Positions 5,077-6,795 of a stretch of DNA of 49,176 nucleotides are shown here, piece after piece. Both the position numbers and the translations under genes were made by a program. The first letter of the stretch is position 1; the number at the start of each line of letters is the position of its first letter. Below the pieces are notes generated by a model, which saw nothing but the letters and a program-made list of their open reading frames with translations, had not been told where the DNA came from and ran no database searches. The stretch is from the NCBI GenBank assembly GCA_026415495.1, contig JAOAGZ010000010.1, positions 1 through 49,176 on the forward strand. The letters run 5' to 3'. Origin of the DNA: Eximiradius proteiniborus (GTDB lineage: Bacteria > Bacteroidota > Ignavibacteria > Kapaibacteriales > UBA2268).

Positions 5077-5508
5077 ATGGAAACAATTCAACTTATTGGC
5101 TATCAAACAAGTTCAGGTGAATATAAGAAACTTCCCTTATTTTTGATGAGTGTTTCGGCAGGTATCCCGACACCAGCTGACCAAACAATTGAAAGCGAGA
5201 TAGACCTCAATGAATTTCTTGTTCAGCATCCTGCCGCAACATTTTTTGCACGTGTAAATGGGGACGCACTTCGTCATTTTGGTATTTGCGACGGTGATAT
5301 ACTAATTGTGGATACAGTAATTGAACCAACCGACGGGAAATTAGTTCTATCCTCCATCAGCGGCGAGCTCACAATTAAAATATACCGCAAATTTGGAGAT
5401 GTGCCTTATTTGCAATCTGCCGATAATCAATTTCTGCCACTCAAAATCGACGGATATGTTGAATTTATTTTGCTCGGTGTAGTAACAAAAATCATTCATT
5501 CTCTGTAA
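5077..5508 (+). CDS. UmuD/LexA-like S24 family protein, predicted catalytically inactive (Ser->Ala)
   Basis: 143 aa; aligns by eye with UmuD: 'SAG-IPTPADQ' cleavage-like site, 'IDLNEFLVQHPAATFFARVNGDA64LRHFGICDGDILIVD', Lys101 at the correct 37-residue spacing. Confidence 0.85.
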   Translation: METIQLIGYQTSSGEYKKLPLFLMSVSAGIPTPADQTIESEIDLNEFLVQHPAATFFARVNGDALRHFGICDGDILIVDTVIEPTDGKLVLSSISGELTIKIYRKFGDVPYLQSADNQFLPLKIDGYVEFILLGVVTKIIHSL

Positions 5509-5571
5509 TTCGGCATAATAATTGATTATTCAAATTAGTTTTTGTTTTATTAATTGGATTGACGAATTATT

Positions 5572-5994
5572 ATGCGAGCAAAAAAATTACCCGGAATAAA
5601 AGAAAAATTTTATTACGAAGCACCTGTTCTCCCGGCTCAATTCAAAGCTGGCAAGCCGGTTGTTGCCGAAAAAATAAATTCAATAGATTTGGTTCGTCTG
5701 CTACTTCCGAGCAAAGAAAATTATTATATGGTGCAGGTTTCTGGCGAAAGTATGATTGAAGAAAATATTTACGATGGTGATATTCTGATTGTTGAGAAAA
5801 ACAACCGGCCAAAAGATGGCGATATTGTTATTGCCTCGCTGAATGGCGAAATGTTGGTAAAAATTTTTCGCTTGATAAACGGGAAAGTGTATCTCTTTTC
5901 AGCAAACAAAAGATTTATCCCGATAGAAATTTTTCCTGATTGGCAGTTCGAAATTCTTGGTGTTGTGCGGCATTGCATTCATAATATGGTGTAG
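5572..5994 (+). CDS. umuD: UmuD/LexA-like S24 family autoprotease
   Basis: 140 aa; 'VSGES60MIEENIYDGDILIVEK' and 'GEMLVK97' reproduce the UmuD Ser60/Lys97 dyad; 'FKAG-KPVVAEK' cleavage-like site. Confidence 0.87.
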   Translation: MRAKKLPGIKEKFYYEAPVLPAQFKAGKPVVAEKINSIDLVRLLLPSKENYYMVQVSGESMIEENIYDGDILIVEKNNRPKDGDIVIASLNGEMLVKIFRLINGKVYLFSANKRFIPIEIFPDWQFEILGVVRHCIHNMV

Positions 5995-5996
5995 CA

Positions 5997-6434
5997 ATGA
6001 AAATTTCCGAAGACACCCGGCGTGTTGTTGATTTTTTAGAGGCATACTCAGAAGAGGGTCTTCGAAAAAGAAATGATTTGGAAGTGATTTTAGAAATTTC
6101 TGCAAGCCGCGGTGATTTCGCTTTTGCTAATAAGCTCATTTTTACCGGCAAAAGCGTTTTCAAACTATTCAAAACATTCAAAAAATCTGTGAGCAATAAT
6201 GCCGATACATTAAAAACTCAGCTCAACTCTTCAATCGAGGAATTGCGAAGTTTGTTGCATTCTGCTGTTGAGAATGCAGATGAACAAATCAAAAAACGCT
6301 TCGAAGAAACCTACTTTGTTAATTCAAACGGGGCGGTGGCTAATTTGATAGACTTATCTCACGATTTATCTGTTCTCAAAGACCTTCAATCGGATAGAAA
6401 TCAATCAATTAAGCAGCAAAGCGATGACTTGTAG
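5997..6434 (+). CDS. Hypothetical protein, helical/coiled-coil-like
   Basis: 145-aa ORF starting directly after the umuD-like stop; same strand and spacing as an operon. Confidence 0.65.
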   Translation: MKISEDTRRVVDFLEAYSEEGLRKRNDLEVILEISASRGDFAFANKLIFTGKSVFKLFKTFKKSVSNNADTLKTQLNSSIEELRSLLHSAVENADEQIKKRFEETYFVNSNGAVANLIDLSHDLSVLKDLQSDRNQSIKQQSDDL

Positions 6435-6795
6435 CGAATTCAAAATGCAGTTTGCCGGACGCGTTATTTTAGCCTTTGTTACAGACGAAGCCACCCACCT
6501 TTTTAAATTCGAAGCCCGCTACATCACTTTTTTTATGAAACGTTTCATCGACGAAAAGCTTCCTATGTGGCGTCATATGTATTTTTACGAAGTTGATAAT
6601 CTGAACGTGGAAATAACAGAGAACGGCAAAATTTGCAAATTCGAAGATAAAGCCAAATTCCTGTATCTTTGGGCAAAGCGTTTAGACCAGTCGGGTGGCG
6701 TTTGCGTAATTCGAAGCACATTTCTGCCCCCGGATATGTCGCTTCTGGAAGGAAAACGTGCTAAAATGTTCACCTTAAGGTTCAACGAAGATTAA
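6424..6795 (+). CDS. Hypothetical protein
   Basis: 123-aa ORF overlapping the previous gene by 11 nt (translational-coupling layout). Confidence 0.6.
   Translation: MTCSEFKMQFAGRVILAFVTDEATHLFKFEARYITFFMKRFIDEKLPMWRHMYFYEVDNLNVEITENGKICKFEDKAKFLYLWAKRLDQSGGVCVIRSTFLPPDMSLLEGKRAKMFTLRFNED

Follow-up and report, generated by a model that had tools for sequence, protein, structure and literature searches.

The two UmuD-like genes

The window, by which is meant the whole stretch of 49,176 nucleotides analysed, carries between positions 5,077 and 5,994 two adjacent forward-strand genes, ORF A and ORF B, each of which codes for a small UmuD-like protein, and two further reading frames, ORF3 and ORF4, follow them on the same strand. 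The relevant features are as follows.

5077..5508, + strand: ORF A, UmuD-like, proposed substrate subunit, 143 aa (Pfam Peptidase_S24, 8.8e-22; 38-copy alignment and tree)
5158..5163, + strand: codons GCA GGT of ORF A, Ala28-Gly29, proposed cleaved bond (Ala-Gly in 38/38 A copies, zero entropy)
5266..5268, + strand: codon GCA of ORF A, Ala64, at the position of catalytic Ser60 of E. coli UmuD (read and aligned)
5377..5379, + strand: codon AAA of ORF A, Lys101, aligned with Lys97 of E. coli UmuD (37 residues from Ala64)
5572..5994, + strand: ORF B, UmuD-like, proposed protease subunit with intact Ser-Lys dyad, 140 aa (Pfam Peptidase_S24, 4.6e-24)
5647..5652, + strand: codons of ORF B for Ala26-Gly27, a cleavage-like dipeptide (kept in the window's genus, absent from most B copies)
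5749..5751, + strand: codon AGT of ORF B, catalytic Ser60 (Ser in 38/38 B copies)
5860..5862, + strand: codon AAA of ORF B, catalytic Lys97 (Lys in 37/37 complete B copies)
5997..6434, + strand: ORF3, no assigned family, 145 aa (homologues adjoin the pair in the window's genus and a B fragment in genome G014)
6424..6795, + strand: ORF4, no assigned family, 123 aa (9/54 family genomes)

Both UmuD-like proteins scored far above the cut-off of Pfam PF00717 (Peptidase_S24) and slightly below the 110-bit cut-off of the NCBIfam UmuD model (A, 106.1 bits; B, 91.5 bits). Judged by sequence, UmuD and UmuD' are their nearest relatives of solved structure, and a fold search conducted with moderately confident structure models (mean pLDDT 66.9 and 79.5 for A and B, respectively) returned UmuD' (1umu/1ay9) as the best match, the target-normalised TM-score being 0.76 with A and 0.85 with B. 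The resemblance to UmuD' resides in the catalytic domains; most of each N-terminal arm was modelled at a pLDDT near or below 50, and the arms are too uncertain to place. Searches of Pfam and NCBIfam gave no match to an HTH or other N-terminal DNA-binding domain in either protein.

Textbooks present UmuD and LexA as switches that cleave themselves. The corresponding combination of a Ser-Lys dyad and a cleavage site in the same chain is absent from A by virtue of Ala64; B of the window's genus, alone among close kin, has both elements, whereas most B copies are without the site. An earlier note, drawn up by reading this DNA alone, had reported Ser60, Lys97 and Ala26-Gly27 in B, and in A the residue Ala64 (GCA, 5266-5268), Lys101 at the same 37-residue spacing and Ala28-Gly29, and every one of these residues is indeed present. 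It had likewise remarked that no umuC lies nearby and that the next two frames are of no assigned family: searches of Pfam, NCBIfam and PHROG bore this out, and a search of the whole genome for a Y-family polymerase was also negative.

Distribution and gene order

Sorting by profile score located both A and B in 38 genomes, namely 37 of the 54 sampled from the window's family together with G062, a member of another family of the same order. A search extended to 123 genomes of the order recovered B-type matches at E <= 1e-40 outside the window's family only in G062, and B was found in all 38 genomes that have A. The two genes are linked in 36 of the 38, with A always upstream and on the same strand, at intervals of between -4 and 149 bp save for one of 328 bp, found in G033, whose B is read from a late start; in the remaining two (G006 and G030) A and B are situated on different contigs, both having been kept. 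Because the flanking genes vary between genera, the A-B pair is regarded as a unit of its own.

Two other genomes, G014 and G015, yielded B fragments on short contigs, and no full A was found in either. A Fisher test of the co-occurrence of A and B had counted both among 17 genomes without either gene, and its p-value is for that reason disregarded. The G015 fragments of B overlap, one being on each strand of a single short contig (L243 1-314 (-) and 394-651 (+)), possibly an assembly artefact. In G014 the B-type fragment is followed by homologues of ORF3 and ORF4 (L108 1-1032, at a contig edge).

ORF3 and ORF4, neither of which reached the cut-off of any Pfam, NCBIfam or PHROG family, are probably co-transcribed with the pair in the window. 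They had been supposed to form a four-gene cluster with A and B, a unit that did not survive the wider comparison: they accompany the pair only in the window's genus and in one other, the latter at a contig edge, and homologues of ORF4 stand alone at a distance from the pair in G018, G049 and G053 (L109-L111). On this sequence comparison, which places the four-gene cluster in two genera only, they are not a core part of the system.

Reciprocal conservation and the proposed division of labour

Alignment of the 38 copies of each protein revealed opposite patterns of conservation. All 38 copies of A have Ala-Gly where the scissile bond of UmuD aligns, and just 8 have the catalytic Ser, the other 30 having Ala (10), Asn (8), Met (4), Glu (3), Asp (3) or Phe (2) in its place, while the Lys position is occupied by Lys in 26 copies and Arg in 12. 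In B the Ser and the adjoining Met61 are present in 38/38 copies and the Lys in all 37 that cover it, and Ala-Gly is found in 8/38; the B copies also share a conserved arm motif of their own (38/38, on a permissive pattern). A third clade from the same lineages, canonical UmuD, retains site, Ser and Lys alike in 28/28 copies, and nearly all UmuD relatives from other phyla carry the motif G-x-S-[ML].

The same reciprocity was apparent by genus, a genus being scored positive if any member has the feature and relatedness above that rank being ignored: Ala-Gly occurs in 17/17 genera for A versus 3/17 for B (Fisher p = 1e-6), and the Ser in 5/17 for A versus 17/17 for B (Fisher p = 2e-5). In genus-weighted columns, P3, P1 and P1' of A have zero entropy and its Ser column exceeds 83% of columns in variability; conversely, Ser, Met and Lys of B have zero entropy and its P1 is more variable than 94%.

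These data are best accommodated by the proposal, to which we assign a probability of roughly 0.6, that the two copies of a duplicated UmuD have been subfunctionalised, A as the cleavable subunit and B as the protease that acts on it in trans. According to this proposal A would have kept its N-terminal arm and Ala-Gly site, its own active site being no longer needed, and B would have kept an intact Ser-Lys protease, its arm in most lineages having no canonical site. We infer that A and B would associate as a dimer, probably on a RecA filament, and that cleavage of A by B in trans, at Ala28-Gly29, would then take the complex from an uncut form to a cut one. There is precedent for such chemistry, in that the arm of one UmuD monomer can be cut by the active site of the other, and UmuD S60A is efficiently cleaved in vitro in heterodimers with an active, truncated and non-cleavable UmuD (PMC5342242).

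The notion of a dead but cleavable partner, cut in trans within an asymmetric dimer, had been put forward in the earlier note, and by the reciprocal losses of A and B and the UmuD precedent in vitro (PMC5342242) it is the best-supported reading of the sequences; the fixity of the Ala, the site in B and the four-gene core that went with it did not hold. Ala64, expected to be conserved among relatives, is not fixed: the codon is GCA in G000, G001 and G002 of the window's genus and TCG (Ser) in the fourth congener, G003, and Ser is also retained in genera g17, g21, g26 and g36. A may self-cleave in these lineages, in which the Ser-retaining copies from within the window's family have the altered motifs GDSL, GNSL, GESL, NESM and GDSY. 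Similarly, the Ala-Gly of B is no general feature, given that the window's genus is one of only three that have it; its presence there makes self-cleavage of B a possibility suggested by the sequence in that genus.

A conserved site could, on the other hand, serve docking rather than cleavage. A would then be a pseudosubstrate, the arm of which occupies the active site of B in an inhibited or checkpoint form and is not normally cut, the dipeptide having been kept for binding. An inhibitor-like arm also predicts a conserved scissile dipeptide next to a degenerate active site, exactly as observed, but the Gly at P1' is as invariant in A as in the self-cleaving canonical clade, a position at which some variation might be expected in a pure inhibitor, and we consider this explanation unlikely.

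Polymerases, RecA, LexA and other S24 proteins

A different role for the pair would be as a divergent UmuD'-like dimer serving UmuC as in Pol V, with any cleavage incidental. UmuD is the closest relative of both A and B, and most genomes of the family that have the pair also encode a Y-family polymerase, both of which are in keeping with such a role. Against it, the pair is kept in seven genomes without a PF00817 match (G000-G003, G020, G030 and G053), and in the four of these that represent the window's genus searches with PF00817 and PF11799, run with positive controls and including a genome 99% complete (G003), detected no Y-family polymerase; umuC was found neither near the pair in the window nor in the window's genome, nor beside any of the pairs examined, and many genomes that have the pair possess a separate canonical UmuD. 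A Pol V accessory function is on balance quite improbable, and since no Y-family polymerase was detected, the target of the A-B complex in the window's genus is probably not UmuC. Replicase, clamp or RecA might be proposed in its stead as a guess.

Of the four genomes that represent the window's genus, three gave a RecA match, the window's own among them. The classical LexA DNA-binding domain was recognised in 5/54 family genomes and in none of the window's genus, so that the genome search for a Y-family polymerase and LexA suggested at the outset detected neither in that genus (PF00817, PF11799 and the classical LexA DNA-binding domain). SOS regulation of A was considered and set aside, there being no CTAA-N5-TTAG sequence (the Bacteroidetes SOS box) in the upstream region, which is itself poorly conserved; the upstream dyads that equalled or exceeded the shuffle maximum were all AT-rich, the top one being present in five genera against a shuffle maximum of four. 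A phage origin was also rejected, the matches listed being distant UmuD-like or LexA-like proteins (for B, below 60% identity in phages and 29-41% in viral contigs), as was a plasmid origin, for which the matches were likewise distant and, among those listed for A, of at most 48% identity.

The window's genome encodes two further S24 proteins besides A and B, and it might be argued that A is cut by such a protease, whether a canonical UmuD or an HTH-linked S24 protein, B having a separate role; however, no canonical UmuD was found in that genome and B accompanies A in 38/38 genomes, which together render the suggestion very improbable. The fourth S24 protein of the genome (G000:C163; L001 1477-1947 (-)) is of 156 aa and has GDSM and VKK motifs but no Ala-Gly in its N-terminal arm. 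Elsewhere, the canonical UmuD genes of G022 and G008 (L240 2019-2498 (+) and L241 2081-2554 (+), respectively) have an aminotransferase-like gene after them rather than umuC, whereas that of G062 (L239) has a UmuC-like gene directly after it.

History and selection

In a quick maximum-likelihood tree, constructed from 131 columns with the motif columns excluded, a single branch sets off each of A, B and canonical UmuD from the rest (SH-aLRT 84, 99 and 97, respectively). G062 forms the first branch in both A and B; its A is fully intact (GESM and Lys), and its B is without Ala-Gly. This suggests an order of loss in which the site of B would have gone first and the active site of A later, a polarity carried by that one genome. 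Within A the tree requires that the Ser state changed at least five times, the residue type at least fourteen times and Lys/Arg at least three times, counts in which loss and regain are indistinguishable.

Pairwise dN/dS values (NG86) of the two genes were mostly 0.01-0.1; within the window's genus they were 0.02-0.05, with A at about 0.02-0.03. These ratios are approximate, many dS values being near or above 1. Both genes are under strong purifying selection, and the low ratio identifies A as a functional gene. That A might be a decaying pseudogene, or its Ala a sequencing error, can be rejected on these ratios and on the congeners, for in spite of the seven different residues found at the Ser position across A copies, Ala-Gly is invariant, GCA recurs in three of the four congeneric genomes, and the error that the earlier note had named as a possible refutation is contradicted by replacement of the Ser in 30/38 copies.

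Relation to known systems

As members of the S24 fold composed of an arm and a catalytic domain, A and B share with UmuD, the regulatory subunit of E. coli Pol V (NF007621/PRK10276, PHROG 811), an Ala/Cys-Gly site and, in the case of B, the Ser-Lys dyad. UmuD is nevertheless one self-cleaving protein encoded beside umuC, whereas A and B would be two specialised copies with no umuC adjacent and none detected in the genus. The nearest parallel is the laboratory combination of UmuD S60A with active non-cleavable UmuD (PMC5342242), likewise a dead cleavable subunit joined to an active one; but there cleavage was seen and the pair had been engineered from one protein, whereas A and B, known from sequence, are two natural genes conserved across a family.

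The non-canonical LexA repressors of Bacteroidetes (PMC8565304) likewise belong to the S24 proteins and to the DNA-damage response of bacteria that have no classical LexA, but they are single proteins equipped with an N-terminal HTH and an Ala-Gly of their own, whereas A and B lack a DNA-binding domain. A UmuD-type protein with a role beyond Pol V accessory function is exemplified by UmuDAb of Acinetobacter (cited in PMC8565304); it is self-cleaving and DNA-binding, neither of which is predicted for A.

Intermolecular cleavage of UmuD is known in vitro, but no description was found of a natural lineage that depends on cleavage in trans, nor, in the open-licence PMC literature, of a natural substrate/protease UmuD pair, an absence there that is not proof of novelty. 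If the proposed division of labour is correct, a fixed substrate/protease pair would imply that trans-cleavage can be a physiological route, and A-B would offer a two-component system for studying RecA-stimulated proteolysis. Retention of the pair where no Y-family polymerase is detectable would also make UmuD-like roles apart from Pol V directly testable.

A second apparently split S24 pair

An HTH protein of 130-165 aa was found in 48/54 genomes of the family; close to its C-terminus, an Ala-Gly motif resembling that of LexA, most often VAAG or AAAG, was seen in 29 of the 30 loci examined. Roughly two thirds of the loci also encode a separate S24 protein beside the HTH protein, and the S24 partners that were aligned keep Ser-Lys. 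The arrangement is exemplified by L003 1477-2476 (-) (G000:C87) and L326-L355, in which the HTH protein is often followed directly by a separate S24 protein of ~215 aa that has Ser-Lys and usually no matching Ala-Gly. By its sequence features the pair is a candidate split LexA/CI-type repressor, and it points to the same split principle as A-B.

A wider and more tentative proposal, the odds of which appear somewhat unfavourable, is that the SOS-type self-cleaving switches of the family have turned into two-protein, trans-proteolytic ones: A-B would be an obligate couple of substrate and protease needing no Y-family polymerase, and the HTH-VAAG protein with its S24 neighbour would be a split LexA/CI-type repressor working on the same principle.

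Near the HTH/S24 pair a small DNA-binding-like protein is encoded in several genera (L003 2494-2829 (-); L227 3766-4032 (+)), and a weak match of the L227 copy to late transcriptional activators of phages (PHROG 836 and 532) hints at a domesticated phage regulatory module.
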